DNA of 64,000 bases from Spiroplasma monobiae MQ-1 (GTDB taxonomy: Bacteria; Bacillota_I; Bacilli_A; Mycoplasmatales; Mycoplasmataceae): the NCBI RefSeq assembly GCF_002865545.1, contig NZ_CP025543.1, forward strand, positions 62,001-126,000. The letters are read 5' to 3'. Positions 23,319 to 43,188 of this stretch are shown one piece after another (positions within the stretch are counted from its first letter, which is position 1; the number at the start of each line of letters is the position of its first letter). The translations under genes were made by a program, and so were the position numbers. The notes beneath the pieces were generated by a model. The model was not told where the DNA came from. It worked only from the letters and a program-made list of their open reading frames with translations, and made no database searches.

Positions 23319-23339
23319 AGAAATGTAAATTAAGTAAAA

Positions 23340-23401
23340 GTTTTTATAAGCCAACATATTGGGTTGGTGTTTCTACAATGTACCTATACATTCCTAAAAA
23401 C
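23340..23401 (+). ncRNA. Purine-class riboswitch aptamer (guanine type predicted)
   Basis: All three helices of the purine aptamer are seen. P1 is GTTTTTA (23340-23346) with TAAAAAC (23395-23401). P2 is GCCAAC with GTTGGT around loop ATATTGG. P3 is AATG with CATT around a loop containing ACCTAT. The junction GTTTCTAC (23369-23376) is the conserved core and includes the base equivalent to U51. GG in loop 2 can kiss CC in loop 3. The base equivalent to position 74 is C (23394), which in this class predicts guanine rather than adenine. Variants binding 2'-deoxyguanosine are known from Mesoplasma florum, so the ligand needs testing. Confidence 0.88.
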
Positions 23402-23410
23402 GAAACACAG

Positions 23411-23457
23411 AAAGGAGCTAACTTTTTACTAGTGATATAAAAAGTGCTCCTTTTTTT
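23411..23457 (+). terminator. Riboswitch expression-platform terminator
   Basis: Long hairpin: aaaggagc-ta-acttttta pairs with taaaaagt-gctccttt, followed by a T-run. It begins 10 bases after the aptamer and ends before the gene, as expected of an OFF switch when ligand is bound. It also hides a GGAG sequence. Confidence 0.85.
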
Positions 23458-23524: not shown

Positions 23525-24889
23525 ATGAAAAAATTATTATCAGGATTAATGGCTACTGCCATTGTTGGGACAAGCGCATCAGCTGTTGCTGCTTGTGGAT
23601 CACCTTATAAAGCTTTCAATGAAATCTATCTAGTAACAGATGCAGGTAAAATTAATGACAAATCATTTAACGAATCTGGTTACAACGGTGGTAACGAAGT
23701 TATGAAAAGACTTGGTGATGTATCTGAGGGTTATAGTGGAATCGGTTATTTTCAACCACCTTCAATCACAGAATTAGAAACAGGTTATAGCAATGCTCAA
23801 ACAGCAGGAGCTAAAACACTTATATTACCAGGATTTCACCATGCTGGAGATCATTTAAAAAATGCTTCTGAGGCAATGAAGAAAAACGACGGAAATGTAA
23901 TTTTCCTTGATGGAGTACCTGAGGATGAAAATGGTAATACTTTAGATAATGTTGTAGGATTCCTATTTAGATCTGATATATCAGCATTCTACTCAGGGTT
24001 TGCTTCAATTATATGATCAATAACAAATAATAATTACAAAGGTCAAGAATTGAAATTAGCAACATTTGGCGGAGTACCAAATGGTTTAGCTGTTGAAAGT
24101 TTCATGATTGGTTACTTAGCTTCAATTGATTTTTATAACCAATTGAAAGAAAATGAAACAGGAGTAAAAAAATTAACTGAGGTTTATAAAGCTGCGGGTA
24201 TGGATGAATCAAAAATTGAGGAAGCTTTAAAAGTTAATGTATCAAGAGTTGACAGTCAAAAAACAGTTAAGTCTGAGTTTAAAAGTAACTTCTTTACAGA
24301 CAACTTTAATGCTGGTGGAGGTACAGTAATTTCTCAACAACTTGTTAATGGAGGTGCTGATGTTGTTATGGGTGTTGCTGGACCACAAACAGGAGACTTA
24401 TTGAGTGTAATAAAAAACCAAAGAGCTAATACAATGGTTGTTGGTGTTGATACAGATCAGGTGAATGCTTACCCTGGAAGTAGTGATAAATTTATTACTT
24501 CAGCAGAAAAAGATTTAGTATCTGCAACAATTGCAGGAGCTGCAATGACAACTTATGCGGATAACAAAGAGCTTAAAGAAAAATCAAAAGATGAAATTGC
24601 TAAAGTTATACTTAAAGACGATCAAAAAAATTTAGAGGATTGAAAAGGTCAAGAAATTTATATGGGTGGATCATTCTCTAAAGATGGAAAAAATAAAATT
24701 AATTCACAATTGCATGACGCAATAGAAAAAGCAATTCCAAATGAGGCACTTATTGATGCTTCAACATACTACTTTGATAAACAAGATTCTACTGCAGATG
24801 GTTGATTAAAAAACATTGGAGACGATACTATTAAAGAATATGTTAACTTAGTTATGAACAGTCTGGGTTTAACAGGAGATGTAATTTAA
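23525..24889 (+). CDS. BMP-family (PnrA-like) nucleoside-binding lipoprotein
   Basis: Extracellular binding protein of an ABC importer for purine nucleosides. 454 residues with a lipoprotein signal peptide: MKKLLSGLMATAIVGTSASA followed by VAAC with lipidated Cys24. The mature part shows BMP features: EIYLVTDAGKINDKSFNESGYNG at the start, KTLILPGF, GVPNGLAVESFMIGYLASIDFY and VMGVAGPQTGD. TGA codons (24016, 24640, 24803) are Trp. AAAGGAGGA precedes the start. Purine specificity is inferred from the riboswitch and the similarity to the YufNOPQ/NupNOPQ guanosine system of Bacillus subtilis. Confidence 0.92.
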
Positions 24890-24945: not shown

Positions 24946-26475
24946 ATGAGTCAATATGCCGTTGAAATGGAAAATATCTCAATGATATTTAACAAAACTA
25001 TTGTGGCCAATAAAGATATAAATTTTAAAGTTAAAAAGAATGAGATTCATGCTCTTGTGGGGGAAAATGGAGCAGGAAAATCAACATTAATGTCAATTTT
25101 ATTTGGTATTTATGAACCTACAACGGGTTCTATTAAAATAAATAATAAATTAGAAGCTATATCAAATCCAATTAAAGCTTCTAAGTTAGGTATTGGCATG
25201 GTTCATCAACACTTTAAATTAGTAGATATTTTTCCTTTATGAAAAAATATTGCTTTGGGTGCTGAAGAACTAATAGCAAAAACAATTGTGAATTCAAAAA
25301 AAATAAAAGAAGAAATTACTGCAATAATGAAAAAATATAATCTAAATGTCGATTTAGATCAAAGTGCAGGAAACGCTTCTGTTGGGGCTCAACAAAGAAC
25401 TGAAATTTTAAAAATTCTTTATAGAGATGCTGATATTTTAGTTTTTGATGAACCAACAGCTGTGCTTACGCCTCAAGAAATTGATGGTTTGCTTGAAGTT
25501 ATGAAAGAATTACAAGCGGCCGGTAAGACAATTATCTTTATTACTCATAAAATGGCAGAAATTTGAAAAGTTGCTAACTCTGCAACCGTAATAAGAAAAG
25601 GAACTGTTATAGATACTTTTGAAATTTCTAAAACTACTCCTGAAAAACTTGCAGAAGCAATGGTTGGTAGAAAAATTGTAGAAGTAAAAAACGAATATAA
25701 ACCAACTCTTACTGAAACGGTTTTAAAAATGAAAAATGTAAGTGTTAGAAAAAGTAATAATCATAAAATATTGGGATTGAAAAACTTCAGTTTAGAAATT
25801 AAAGCAGGAGAAGTTGTTGCTATTGCTGGTGTAGAAGGTAATGGACAACAAGAGATAGTTAACGCAATAACTGGTTTAAGTAAAATTGAAAAGGGTCAAA
25901 TTCTAGTTTCCGATGAAGACGTTTCGAAAAGTTCGATTTATGATAGATATAATAAATTCAAAATTCGTCATATTCCAGAAGATAGACATAAACATGGTTT
26001 AGTTTTAGACTCTACTTTATTAGAGAATATGGTATTACAAGATATTTCAAACAGTAAATTCAATAAAATGGGTATTTTAAATTTTGCAGCTATTCAAACT
26101 TATGGTCAAAAAATATTATTAAAATTTGATGTTAGAAATGCCCAATCGGGGTTTGCAATTTCTAGACAACTTTCAGGTGGAAATCAACAAAAAGCTATAG
26201 TTGGTAGAGAACTTACTGCTGAAAGTCAATTAATAGTTATTTTTCAACCAACAAGAGGTTTGGATGTGGGTTCAATAGAATTTATTCACAGTCAAATACT
26301 GAATGCAAAAAATGAAGGGAAAGCGATTTTATTGATTTCCTATGAATTATCAGAAGTTATGAGTTTAGCTGACAGAATAGTTGTTGTTAATTCTGGTGAA
26401 ATGGTTGGAGAAATTGAAGCCAAAGGAGCCAAAAAAGAAGACATTGGTAGAATGATGTTGGGAAAGGAATCTTAG
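24946..26475 (+). CDS. ABC importer ATPase with two nucleotide-binding domains (YufO/NupO type)
   Basis: 509 residues, a fused double ATPase of the sugar/nucleoside importer family. Domain 1: Walker A GENGAGKST near residue 39, a VGAQQR signature and Walker B ILVFDEPTA near 165. Domain 2: degenerate Walker A GVEGNGQQE near 296, signature LSGGNQQK near 409 and VIFQPTRGLDVGS in place of a true Walker B, as is usual for the second site of this family. TGA codons at 25240 and 25564 are Trp. It drives import of the ligand bound by the lipoprotein. A GAGGAGA site precedes the start. Confidence 0.93.
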
Positions 26476-38720: not shown

Positions 38721-38984
38721 ATGACTTCATTTACAGCAACAGTAATTGATCCGGTTGGATTACATGCAAGACCTGCATCAGTTTTAACCAAGGAAGCTTC
38801 AAAATTCGCATCAGAAATTAAAATCAAATGTGGAGATAAAGAAGGTAACTTAAAATCAATTATGAACGTAATGGCACTTGCAGTTAAAACAGGTGCTGAA
38901 ATTACAATTGAAGCAAATGGCGAAGACGAAAACGAAGCTATTGAAGCAATTGAAAAAGCAATGAAAGATAACTCAATTATCTAA
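38721..38984 (+). CDS. ptsH: HPr, phosphocarrier protein of the PTS
   Basis: Carries phosphate from EI to sugar-specific EII proteins. 87 residues, normal length: DPVGLHARPAS with active-site His15, and LKSIMNVM with regulatory Ser46, the site used by the HPr kinase encoded at 6366. AAGGAGGAT is a strong ribosome binding site, fitting a highly expressed protein. It is a single gene closed by a strong terminator. Confidence 0.97.
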   Translation: MTSFTATVIDPVGLHARPASVLTKEASKFASEIKIKCGDKEGNLKSIMNVMALAVKTGAEITIEANGEDENEAIEAIEKAMKDNSII

Positions 38985-38991
38985 TTTGATT

Positions 38992-39014
38992 AAAAGTCCT
39001 ACGGACTTTTTTTT
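38992..39014 (+). terminator. Intrinsic terminator after ptsH
   Basis: aaaagtcc-tac-ggactttt hairpin with extended T-run. Confidence 0.9.
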
Positions 39015-39043
39015 GTCCACATTTTGTCCACATTTTAACCACA
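39013..39043 (+). promoter_or_regulatory. Three phased DnaA-box-like 9-mers
   Basis: TTGTCCACA at 39013-39021, TTGTCCACA at 39024-39032 and TTAACCACA at 39035-39043, each one base away from the DnaA consensus TTATCCACA and exactly 11 bases apart. They lie between the ptsH terminator and the nrd promoter, about 100 bases upstream of the latter. DnaA controls nrd genes in other bacteria, so a role in nrd regulation is a reasonable inference. Confidence 0.5.
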
Positions 39044-39052
39044 TTTATTTTT

Positions 39053-39080
39053 AAAAACCCTTTATTTAAGGGCTTTTTTT
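39053..39080 (+). terminator. Second terminator downstream of ptsH
   Basis: aaaaaccctt-tattt-aagggctttttt hairpin with T-run, insulating the nrd promoter from ptsH read-through. Confidence 0.7.
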
Positions 39081-39147
39081 ACTTATTTATTACTAAAAAT
39101 AAATTTATTTTTTTTCAAAAAAATATGGTATTTTTCTTTTTTTTAGT

Positions 39148-39153
39148 TATAAC
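39148..39153 (+). promoter_or_regulatory. Probable -10 box of the nrd promoter
   Basis: TATAAC within TTATAACAATATAG, preceded by a T8-C-A7 tract at 39108-39123. No -35 hexamer is clear. It would start transcription just before the riboswitch-like leader. Confidence 0.4.
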
Positions 39154-39171
39154 AATATAGAAATGAAAACA

Positions 39172-39345
39172 TAATTTCACAAAAAAAAGATGCGGAAATT
39201 TGGTGAAACTCCAAAACTGTACCAGCACCTGTAATAAGGAAATAGAAATTTAATGATCTATTAGAATTTGAGTCAGATGCCAATTCTTTTATATAAATCT
39301 TTTACTGGCTATAAAAGATAATATTTACAAATAATATTTTAGCCA
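39172..39345 (+). ncRNA. Cobalamin-riboswitch-like leader of nrdFIE
   Basis: The core from 39194 reads GGAAATTTGGTGAAACTCC, then AAAACTGTACCAGCACCTGT, close to the B12-riboswitch consensus GGGAA..GGTGAAA.TCC..CnGnCCCGC.ACTGT. TTTGG/CCAAA forms P5 with a TGAAACT loop; AATAG/CTATT forms the next arm. AGTCAGATGCCA (39271-39282) matches the B12 box. A later hairpin atcttta.. (39297-39319, loop CTGGCTA) resembles P13/L13. ATTTCACAAAA (39174-39184) can pair with TTTTGTGAAAT (39400-39410) as an enclosing stem. The gene controlled is ribonucleotide reductase, a known B12-riboswitch target in some bacteria. The ligand is not proven. Confidence 0.78.
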
Positions 39346-39370
39346 CGATACAATCATCGTGTTTTTGTTT
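39344..39370 (+). terminator. Terminator in the nrd leader
   Basis: cacgat-acaatc-atcgtg hairpin followed by TTTTT. TAGCCA just before and overlapping it (39340-39345) can instead pair with TGGCTA in the L13-like loop (39306-39311), an antiterminator that excludes the terminator. The rest of the leader (39371-39536) holds several short hairpins and no gene. Confidence 0.7.
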
Positions 39371-39536
39371 CACTAAAAGTGCAGTTAATGCGCGTAAAAT
39401 TTTGTGAAATGATATGTTTTTCAAACTATCATTTTTAACAACCCAAATTACTATCAATCATAATATTAAGGCGTTAAAAACGCACCAACTATTCAAAAAA
39501 CTGGGTAGTTTTTAAAAAAAGAAAGGCAATAAACTT

Positions 39537-40559
39537 ATGGCAAAGAAAAAAAATCAATATTACTATGATTCACTTTCACCAATTGAATTTGCATTAAACA
39601 AATTTAATGGAAGAATGAGATCAGTTAACTGAAACGTTATGAACGATGATAAAGATTTAGAAGTATGAAATAGAGCAACACAAAACTTTTGATTACCAGA
39701 GAAAGTACCGGTTTCAAACGATTTAGTATCTTGAAAAACTTTAACTCCTGAATGACAAGAGTTAATTACAAGAACTTTTACTGGACTTACATTGTTAGAT
39801 ACAATTCAAGCAACAGTTGGAGATGTTGCTCAAGTACAAAACTCACTGACAGACCATGAACAAGTTGTTTATACTAACTTTGCATTCATGGTGGCTGTTC
39901 ATGCGAGATCATATGGAACAATCTTTTCAACTTTATGTTCAAGTGAACAAATAGAAGAAGCTCATGAATGGGTTATTAACTGTGATAGTTTGCAAGAGAG
40001 AGCTAAAGCATTAATTCCTTACTATGTAGGAAACGATCCTTTAAAATCAAAAGTTGCAGCAGCACTTATGCCTGGATTCTTGTTGTATGGTGGATTCTAT
40101 TTACCATTTTATTTATCAGCTAGGGGTAAATTACCAAATACATCTGACATAATCAGATTAATTTTAAGAGATAAAGTTATTCACAATTACTACAGTGGTT
40201 ATAAATACCAAAGAAAAGTTGAAAAGCTTTCTCCTGAAAAACAAGCAGAAATGAAAAAATTTGTATTCGATCTATTATATGAGTTGATAGATTTAGAAAA
40301 TAAATTCCTTTATGAATTATACGATGGTTTCGGAATAGCAGAAGATGCTGTAAGATTCAGTTTATATAATGCTGGAAAATTCTTACAAAACTTAGGTTAC
40401 GAGTCACCATTTACAGAAGAAGAAACAAGAATTGAGCCTGAAATTTTCACTCAATTATCAGCTAGAGCTGATGAAAATCATGATTTCTTCTCAGGAAATG
40501 GATCATCATATGTAATGGGTGTAACTGAAGAAACTTCAGACGAAGACTGAGAATTCTAA
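39537..40559 (+). CDS. nrdF: NrdF, ribonucleotide reductase R2 of metal-free class Ie (VPK type)
   Basis: Radical-generating subunit of ribonucleotide reductase, 340 residues. The fold follows class Ib NrdF (FTGLTLLDTIQ, ENHDFFSGNGSSYVMG). Of the six usual metal ligands, Asp88, His122 and His216 remain, but the three Glu are Val119 (FMVAVHARSY), Pro179 (ALMPGFLLY) and Lys213 (RDKVIH). Tyr126 is present. This Val-Pro-Lys pattern defines class Ie, shown in Mesoplasma florum to use a metal-free DOPA radical formed from the equivalent Tyr with help of NrdI. Seven TGA codons are Trp. A GAAAGG site precedes the ATG. Confidence 0.95.
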
Positions 40560-40562
40560 TAA

Positions 40563-41036
40563 ATGCACGATGACGTTATCAAAATATCTGGACAAGATAT
40601 TGTGAGACCGAAGGGAAAAGTATTTTGTGTATACTTTTCATCAATTTCAAACAACACCCATAGATTTATGGATAAATTAGATGTAAATGACGCAAGAATT
40701 CCTTATGAATTAGACGAAGATTTAATTGTGGATAAGGAATACGTATTAATTACTCCGACATATGCCGGGGGAGGTGGAGACACTAAAGGTGCCGTCCCAC
40801 CTCAAGTAGTTAAATTTTTAAATAACGAAACTAATAGGAATTTATGTAGAGGAGTGATTGCTTCTGGTAACACCAACTTTGGTGACACCTTTGCAATTGC
40901 GGGACCTATCATTTCTAAGAAATTAGGTGTTCCTCTTTTATATCAATTTGAACTATTAGGTACTAAAAATGATGTTGACACTATAAGAGAAATCTTAGAA
41001 GATTTCTGAAGGGGAAAAGAAAATGAACAAAGATAA
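40563..41036 (+). CDS. nrdI: NrdI flavodoxin-like activator
   Basis: 157 residues (ending ...[12 protein letters not shown], where TGA 41007-41009 is Trp). Flavodoxin-like FMN site: [20 protein letters not shown] near residue 20-40, then [11 protein letters not shown] and [14 protein letters not shown]. NrdI supplies superoxide or oxidant; in class Ie systems it is needed to hydroxylate the R2 tyrosine to DOPA. It starts 3 bases after nrdF and overlaps nrdE by 14 bases, indicating tight coupling. Confidence 0.93.
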
Positions 41037-43188
41037 TATCAAAAATCTTTCTGGTACAAATGAATCTGATGAATATATCAAATTAAATGCTAGAGCAAAA
41101 CTTTTTGTTCCAGGTCAAGACAATTTTAAATTAGATATTCAAGCAGCAGAAATGTACATGAAAGAGCACATTGAACCAAATATGATGAAATTTGGGTCAA
41201 CAAAAGAAAGAATTGATTATTTAGTAACAAATCAATACTATGATGATCAAGTAATCAATAAATATACAATCGAACAAATCGATGAAATAACAAAATATGC
41301 ATATTCATTCGATTTTAAATTCCCAAGTTTTATGGGAGCTTTAAAATTCTTTAATGCTTATGGATTAAAAACTTTCGATGGTAAACAATACCTTGAAAAC
41401 TATGAAGATAGAGTAGTTTCAAATGCTCTATTCTTAGCTGGTGGTAACTTTGAAAAAGCTAAAAACATTTTAAAACAAATTATTTTAGGAAGATTTCAAC
41501 CTGCAACTCCAACATTCTTAAATGCTGGTAAAAAACAAAGGGGAGAATATGTATCTTGTTACTTATTAAGAGTAGAAGATAACATGGAATCAATTGCAAG
41601 AGCAGTTACAACATCACTACAATTATCAAAACGTGGTGGAGGAGTTGCTTTGTGTTTGACAAACTTAAGAGAATTTGGTGCACCAATTAAAAATATTGAA
41701 AACCAAGCTACAGGAGTTATTCCTGTAATGAAAATCTTAGAAGATTCATTCTCATATGCAAACCAATTAGGACAAAGACAAGGCGCTGGAGCCGTTTACT
41801 TAAATGTTCACCACCCAGATATCATGTCATTCTTGGATACAAAAAGAGAAAATGCTGATGAAAAAATAAGAATTAAATCTTTATCATTAGGAGTTGTTGT
41901 TCCGGATATTACTTTTGAATTAGCAAAAGAAAATAAAGAAATGGCACTATTCAGTCCTTATGATGTAGAAAAAGTTTATGGAAAACCATTCTCAGATATT
42001 TCGGTAACTAAAGAATATGAAAACATGGTAAATAATCCAAAAATTAAAAAAACTTACATTAATGCAAGAAAGTTATTCCAAGCTATCGCTGAATTACATT
42101 TTGAAAGTGGATATCCATACTTATTGTTTGATGATACTGTAAATAACAACAATGCTCACCCAGTAGCTGGAAGAATTGTTATGAGTAACTTGTGTAGTGA
42201 AATTGTACAGGTATCAACACCAAGTGAATTTAATGCTGACTTATCATTTTCAAAAACTGGAGAAGATATTTGTTGTAACTTGGGAAGCATGAATATTGCA
42301 AAAACAATGGAAAGTGGAGAAGAGTTTTCTGAAGTAATCTATAACTCAATTCTTGCTTTAGATCACGTTTCAAGAAACAGTGATTTATCAAGTGCTCCTT
42401 CAATTGAAAATGGAAATAAAAATAATCACGCTGTTGGATTAGGTGCTATGAACTTACATGGTTTCTTAGCAACAAATCACATTTACTATAATTCACCAGA
42501 AGCTGTAGACTTTACAAATATGTTCTTCTACACAATGGCATTTCATGCTTTTAAAGCTTCAAATAAATTGGCAAAAGAATTTGGTTCATTTGCAGGATTT
42601 AATATTTCTAAATTCGCAGACGGTTCATTCTTTGATAAATATACAAAATGTGAAGAAAATAAATGAACTCCTGAATCAGATACAGTAAAAAACTTATTTG
42701 ATAAAAACAATGTTACTATCCCTACTCAACAGGATTGAATTGATTTAGCAGAAGAAATTAAAAAAACAGGATTAGCAAACTCACACTTGATGGCTGTTGC
42801 TCCAACTGGATCAATTAGTTACTTATCATCATGTACACCGAGCTTACAACCTGTAGTTGCTCCAGTCGAAGTTAGAAAAGAAGGAAAACTTGGAAGAGTT
42901 TATGTTCCTGCTTATAAAATTGATTTTGACAACATGGGTTATTACTCACTTGGAGCATATGAAGTGGGACCAGATCCAATTATTGACATTGTAGCTGCAG
43001 CACAACAACACGTTGATCAAGCTATATCATTAACATTATTTATGACAGACCAAGCAACAACAAGAGATTTAAACAAAGCATATATTAGAGCATTCAAAAA
43101 AGGATGTGCATCAATATATTACGTAAGAGTTCGTCAAGAAGTTCTTGAAGACAGTGAAAACTACGAATGTGATGCTTGTGTAATATAA
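41023..43188 (+). CDS. nrdE: NrdE, ribonucleotide reductase R1
   Basis: Catalytic subunit, 721 residues, normal for NrdE. Active-site features: first redox Cys in [18 protein letters not shown], radical Cys in [10 protein letters not shown] (with its Asn and Glu neighbours), second redox Cys in [12 protein letters not shown], and the C-terminal CDAC shuttle four residues from... the end in ECDACVI. No N-terminal ATP-cone is evident, as in other NrdE. TGA codons (42664, 42738) are Trp. It pairs with the class Ie NrdF upstream. Confidence 0.96.

Follow-up and report, generated by a model that had tools for sequence, protein, structure and literature searches.

Cobalamin (B12) riboswitches form a class known for corrinoid ligands, and in some bacteria they repress B12-independent ribonucleotide reductases (RNRs), e.g., Streptomyces nrdABS. 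In crystal structures, J3/4 and J6/3 contact the corrin ring and its upper ligand. The class Ie nrdF of Mesoplasma florum carries the 2'-deoxyguanosine (2'-dG) riboswitch 2dG-I (RF01510), which belongs to a family whose usual ligand is guanine. Corrinoid riboswitches of the repressing type have been characterized with P. megaterium metE, in which kissing between L5 and L13 stabilizes P13 so that the terminator forms, and the P13 bases otherwise pair with terminator-side bases (PMC10653944). According to a 2009 survey, neither nickel nor cobalt is used by 88% of the examined Mollicutes (PMC2667541). In open-licence PMC, we found no literature joining Spiroplasma, cobalamin, and riboswitch, which is weak evidence of novelty, and none joining Spiroplasma and class II ribonucleotide reductase. 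Judged by title, the Spiroplasma and riboswitch literature there dealt with other subjects.

In this study, we analyzed a window of 64,000 nucleotides, bases 62001-126000 of a mollicute genome of 891,575 bp (G000). Motif reading and family models placed a leader at 39181-39361, 5' of an nrdFIE operon on the forward strand. The operon contains nrdF for the RNR beta subunit (39537..40559; NF010572, 625 bits, and TIGR04171), nrdI for a flavoprotein (40563..41036; TIGR00333, 181.5 bits), and nrdE for the class I RNR alpha subunit (41023..43188; TIGR04170, 1006 bits). V/P/K substitutions define the metal-free class Ie VPK variant of the enzyme (PMC11846895). NrdF of the window has V119, P179, and K213 in place of the three metal-ligand glutamates, and these residues were V/P/K in all 23 aligned NrdF proteins (the window and 22 relatives). 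With nrdI also present, the enzyme belongs to class Ie. As judged by NCBIfam and Pfam searches of G000, which is 99.7% complete, nrdFIE appears to be the sole RNR found in this genome. Matches to TIGR02504 in G000 that might have been taken for NrdJ were rejected, as they are NrdE. NrdD was found in G002 and was not found in G000, G007, or G013; G017 and G019 were outside that search.

The first-pass annotation had described motifs in the order and spacing of cobalamin riboswitches before a class Ie RNR. We found every named motif at its place, and AdoCbl-II (RF01689) matched the leader with an E-value of 1.3e-4 over the whole G000 genome. When the 561-nt stretch 38980-39540 was searched against all Rfam, the RF01689 score was 27.3 bits (E 3.5e-4) with a gathering cutoff of 36.5. 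The score for Cobalamin (RF00174) was 22.6 bits with a gathering cutoff of 31.5 (E 3.9e-4 genome-wide). The matches from the covariance search suggested in the annotation are significant by E-value, with scores below the gathering cutoffs of both cobalamin families, and a default Rfam scan therefore misses the element. 2dG-I (RF01510), a purine-type three-way junction, was not matched in the stretch 38980-39540, even with E-values of up to 10 allowed. The fold of the leader is not unusually stable when predicted from the single sequence (z -0.98), so the evidence for the element is comparative. The orthologous nrdF leaders of five further species match RF01689/RF00174, most of them significantly, below the cutoff. 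A model built from the six leaders gave one match in each of the six genomes with 142-158 bits; across 320 genomes from the order, the remaining matches reached at most 79 bits. A similar leader was absent from phage records, and plasmid records contained one 41-nt match only. Weak RF01689 matches near ECF-type genes in G001, G004, G007, G009, and G013 were rejected; where checked (L015, L017, and L027), they are FMN riboswitches, located between divergent ECF-type membrane protein genes.

Cobalamin riboswitches were also found directly before nrdF in G005, G015, G028, G183, G207, G213, G214, and G317 (L098), and in L096, a leader from the Spiroplasma endosymbiont of Danaus chrysippus. Those of G005, G015, G028, L096, and L098 are above the Rfam cutoff, and the rest were detected by model R1 only. 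In the G005 leader, the P13 hairpin and the terminator are almost letter-for-letter those of the window, and by sequence this leader is a bridge between the canonical riboswitches and the window element. The position of the window leader is orthologous to that of the canonical nrdF riboswitches of other spiroplasmas. These results indicate that the leader, with its significant covariance and its homology, is derived from cobalamin riboswitches by descent, while under the rules of Rfam it is not a member.

The leader shares with RF01689 and RF00174 (clan CL00101) the four-way core P3-P6 with the L5 GGTGAAA motif and the L4/L6 blocks, followed by a B12 box, a P13/L13 hairpin, and a terminator platform. 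An AT-rich promoter-like block (AGTTATAACAATATAGAAATGA region, 39145..39166), which can be aligned across the nine species of the clade and is conserved there, is probably the -10 region or leader start; it contains no strict sigma-70 match on the forward strand. The closing stem P1 (39185..39290) pairs AAAAGA 39185-39190 with TCTTTT 39285-39290, and the inner P3 pairs GG 39194-39195 with CC 39280-39281. P5/L5 (39199..39215; TTTGG/CCAAA, loop TGAAACT) includes GGTGAAACTCC at 39202-39212 and is conserved in the six species. It is followed by ACTGTACCAGCACCTGT at 39216-39232, in which P4/L4 (39218..39227; TGT-ACCA-GCA) is invariant in the six species; both elements were assigned from the Rfam alignment. 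The J4/6 nucleotide is C at 39228. P6 (39229..39276) pairs CTG 39229-39231 with CAG 39274-39276 around a variable inner hairpin. The B12 box GAGTCAGATGCC (39270..39281), with AGTCAGATGCC at 39271-39281, has a J6/3 of 3 nt (ATG), which appears as a gap in the Rfam alignment. Downstream are the P13 hairpin ATCTTTTA-CTGGCTA-TAAAAGAT (39297..39319; L13 = CTGGCTA) and the intrinsic terminator CACGAT-ACAATC-ATCGTG (39344..39366; hairpin 39344-39361, then TTTTT). Terminator-like sites in the region numbered 4, compared to 0.2 in shuffles.

The pairing was then compared among relatives by aligning the nrdF leaders, as the first-pass annotation had proposed, and the arms were matched in the six species. 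The P1/P3 arms fit their own partners better than the arms of other species (13/720 permutations as good), and the arms of the variable inner hairpin of P6 co-vary (24/720 permutations as good). For six related species, these permutation results give modest support for maintained pairing. GTGAAAC of L5 also complements GTTTCAC 3' of the terminator, and this pairing was left out of the model because the GTTTCAC block persists in G001 and G009, both of which are without the aptamer. Three further pairings were observed around the leader. ATTTCACAAAA at the leader start (39175-39185) and TTTTGTGAAAT 3' of the terminator (39401-39411) are perfectly complementary over 11 bases, as is the case in G007 and G019, and their pairing would enclose the entire switch. 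A second hairpin with a T-run (AAATGATA ... TATCATTTTT, 39407-39435) lies downstream of the main terminator and is conserved in most of the clade. A small hairpin (GCGTTAAAAACGC, 39471-39483) 5' of the nrdF ribosome site shows apparent compensatory changes in most of the nine related species, including the aptamer-less ones.

An antiterminator-like alternative hairpin (39306..39345) can form between TGGCTA 39306-39311 and TAGCCA 39340-39345. The first-pass annotation had regarded this pairing as a complete switch. The terminator/antiterminator arrangement is plausible, but the alternative hairpin and the terminator have a two-base overlap, and the terminator is shortened, not abolished, in the alternative fold. 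The alternative hairpin is also nearly isoenergetic with the P13 state: P13 with the 6-bp terminator and the alternative hairpin are within about 1 kcal/mol in all seven leaders. CCA of L5 (39211-39213) can kiss TGG of L13 (39306-39308), identically in the six species, and the corresponding pair in G005 is GCCA:TGGC. This is similar to the repressing riboswitch of P. megaterium metE, in which L5-L13 kissing holds P13 and drives termination (PMC10653944). The window leader differs from it in that L13 and its adjacent bases pair with TAGCCA, with only the two-base terminator overlap.

To measure selection, changes counted by parsimony on the six-species tree were compared with 104 four-fold degenerate nrdF sites (0.94 changes per site). 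In the core from P5 to L6, 8 changes were counted vs 43.3 expected; P13 had 0 changes in 23 columns vs 21.7 expected, and the alternative hairpin with the terminator had 12 changes vs 55.6 expected. The flanking leader sequence was mostly at or above the neutral rate, and J6/3 with the inner P3 evolved much as neutral sequence would, with 6 changes over 4 columns. The NrdF tree grouped the six species with G001, G004, and G009, with weak support for the inner branching order. In these three genomes, the core has 29-44% identity to the six; therefore, it is erasable within this group. The terminator stem is -4.7 to -6.0 kcal/mol in the seven aptamer-keeping leaders and has collapsed to -0.5, 0, and 0 in G001, G004, and G009. 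Since these three form one lineage, the loss of aptamer and terminator was counted as one coupled loss. These substitution counts demonstrate that the six species kept the leader under strong selection.

The canonical core of the mollicute riboswitches consists of GGGAA, GCAACTG, and AGYCAG with four J6/3 bases and CC. In the canonical set examined, the departures were L006 (GGGGG) and one copy in a decaying genome (L007). The window clade does not have the combination of GGGAA in J3/4, GCAACTG, and a 4-nt J6/3, and in this it is unlike RF01689 and RF00174. The GGG of J3/4 is lost, with the third G replaced by A or T in the four leaders retaining GG. The canonical A of J4/6 is replaced by C in five species (GCACCTG) and by T in G019 (GCATCTC), and J6/3 has three bases, one short of the canonical four. 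The GG/CC of P3 is altered in G019 and G013, and G019 also lacks one P6 pair. Because conserved core positions have changed, the switch may now sense something else, and the first-pass annotation was right to leave a different ligand open. The neutral-rate variation of J6/3 and the inner P3 is compatible both with an altered pocket and with the absence of any ligand. We favor, with a probability of roughly 0.55, a working termination riboswitch that was inherited from a B12 riboswitch and now has a non-corrinoid signal, plausibly a deoxynucleoside. A more specific form of this reading, which we hold tentatively, is that evolution re-specified the scaffold from corrinoids to another kind of ligand, probably a deoxynucleoside or deoxynucleotide, so that it now gives product feedback on the metal-free RNR.

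The former aptamer could instead serve as a structural scaffold (a stable P5/P4/P6 and the L5-L13 kissing) in a ligand-independent attenuator with a fixed termination level, or one that responds to transcription speed, temperature, or Mg2+ and has no small-molecule ligand. In favor of such an attenuator, J6/3 and the inner P3 vary freely while the scaffold, P13, and terminator are fixed, and G019 retains the platform and terminator despite its damaged P6. However, J4/6, L4, and L6 are nearly fixed, and a scaffold alone need not keep so many unpaired bases. The loss of the aptamer in G001, G004, and G009 was also accompanied by loss of the terminator. These observations make a ligand-free attenuator unlikely, although it is the strongest of the alternatives to a riboswitch with a non-corrinoid signal.

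The first-pass annotation had stated that mollicutes are not known to have a B12-dependent reductase or cobalamin synthesis. This does not apply to several spiroplasma-type genomes, which have NrdJ and, in those checked, mostly CobA and a putative B12 ECF component. NrdJ was above the curated cutoff in G003, G015, G021, G027, G028, G033, G182, G183, G207, G213, G214, G313, and G314, and was broken or partial in G005, G032, G037, and G317. In the first 40 genomes, CobA and the ECF component encoded in the riboswitch operon of G015 closely tracked NrdJ; G027 has NrdJ without CobA or this component. Family models assign no name to the ECF component, and its substrate is probably B12, as suggested by the cobalamin-riboswitch operon that it shares with CobA. 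The cobalamin riboswitches of the B12-using spiroplasma-type genomes are on nrdF and/or uptake genes. Where a class I RNR with a cobalamin riboswitch coexists with NrdJ in these genomes, a logic like that of Streptomyces nrdABS is implied. L004 (G003) and L005 (G033) are cobalamin riboswitches before predicted lipoprotein-like genes and not before nrdF, and in G003 the ECF component and cobA are located further downstream of L004. G005 is in the process of losing B12: at C2:111927-120691 (L007 and L011), nrdJ is in pieces, cobA is broken, and the ECF component has an in-frame stop, while two cobalamin riboswitches above the cutoff are still present.

The statement of the annotation did hold for the window genome and its sisters, as NrdJ, CobA, and the B12-operon ECF component were undetectable in G000 and its eight nearest genomes. 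Neither a PduO-type adenosyltransferase nor a B12-binding domain was found in G000, and the B12-binding (PF02310) matches in some relatives were partial and below the cutoff. By parsimony, B12 loss would have preceded the split of the six species. Since the B12-dependent isozyme is missing, the Streptomyces-type logic cannot apply in the window genome. The leader might still sense cobalamin, with host corrinoids entering by an unrecognised route and bound as a host or environment signal. The fold and most of the conserved cobalamin-riboswitch blocks are retained, which would be consistent with such a sensor, and cobalamin riboswitch aptamers are reported to tolerate a broad range of corrinoids (PMC9600662). 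Against this, conserved core positions are altered and none of the B12 functions searched for was detected. Repression by B12 would moreover switch off the apparently sole RNR, which makes no biological sense in a cell without detectable B12 genes. We therefore regard a retained cobalamin sensor as improbable, and the present ligand is most likely something other than a corrinoid. That the leader is a decaying relic, drifting since its role was lost along with NrdJ, would agree with the sub-threshold Rfam scores, the altered core positions, and the outright loss in three sister genomes, but it is strongly disfavoured and very improbable because the core, P13, and terminator have about five-fold or more fewer changes than four-fold sites and the six lineages diverged about as much as those with the core erased.

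For the favored riboswitch with a non-corrinoid signal, we infer the switching, its sign, and the ligand as follows. The ancestor would be an adenosylcobalamin riboswitch, repressing class I RNR while B12 let NrdJ work. The window clade would have lost NrdJ and CobA together with the B12-associated ECF component but retained the switch. Ligand bound in the aptamer would promote the L5-L13 kissing that holds P13; with P13 held, TAGCCA would be free, the full 6-bp terminator would form, and nrdFIE would be off. In the absence of the ligand, TGGCTA would pair with TAGCCA, the terminator would be shortened, and RNR would be made. Given the balanced states and the kissing-loop analogy, the sign is thus likely off when ligand-bound and on when ligand-free. 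The signal would most plausibly be an end product of the pathway such as a deoxynucleoside or deoxynucleotide, comparable to that of the 2'-dG riboswitch of Mesoplasma florum.

Starting in the relatives that use B12, the same leader can be traced by way of a genome in which nrdJ and cobA are broken to six B12-free species, where it is kept, and to three that lost it together with the terminator. With these natural before-and-after sequences, it can be tested directly whether the ligand has changed or the switch has become a ligand-free attenuator. 2dG-I likewise forms a riboswitch leader before a class Ie nrdF, in a mollicute that is related, but the fold of the window leader is unrelated to that of 2dG-I, which is of the purine family. 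In related mollicutes, the metal-free class Ie RNR seems to have come under riboswitch control from two RNA families that are unrelated to each other, purine and cobalamin. If the scaffold was indeed re-specified, it would mirror, in the cobalamin family, the shift from guanine to 2'-dG in M. florum. A 2dG-I match from Rfam was also found before nrdF in G023. Elsewhere in the window, a Purine riboswitch (23322-23416; 44.6 bits, cutoff 37) precedes two genes that probably function in nucleoside uptake, one lipoprotein-like (23525-24889) and one for an ABC transporter ATPase (24946-26475). CCTA near the 3' end of this riboswitch suggests that it is of the guanine or 2'-dG type.
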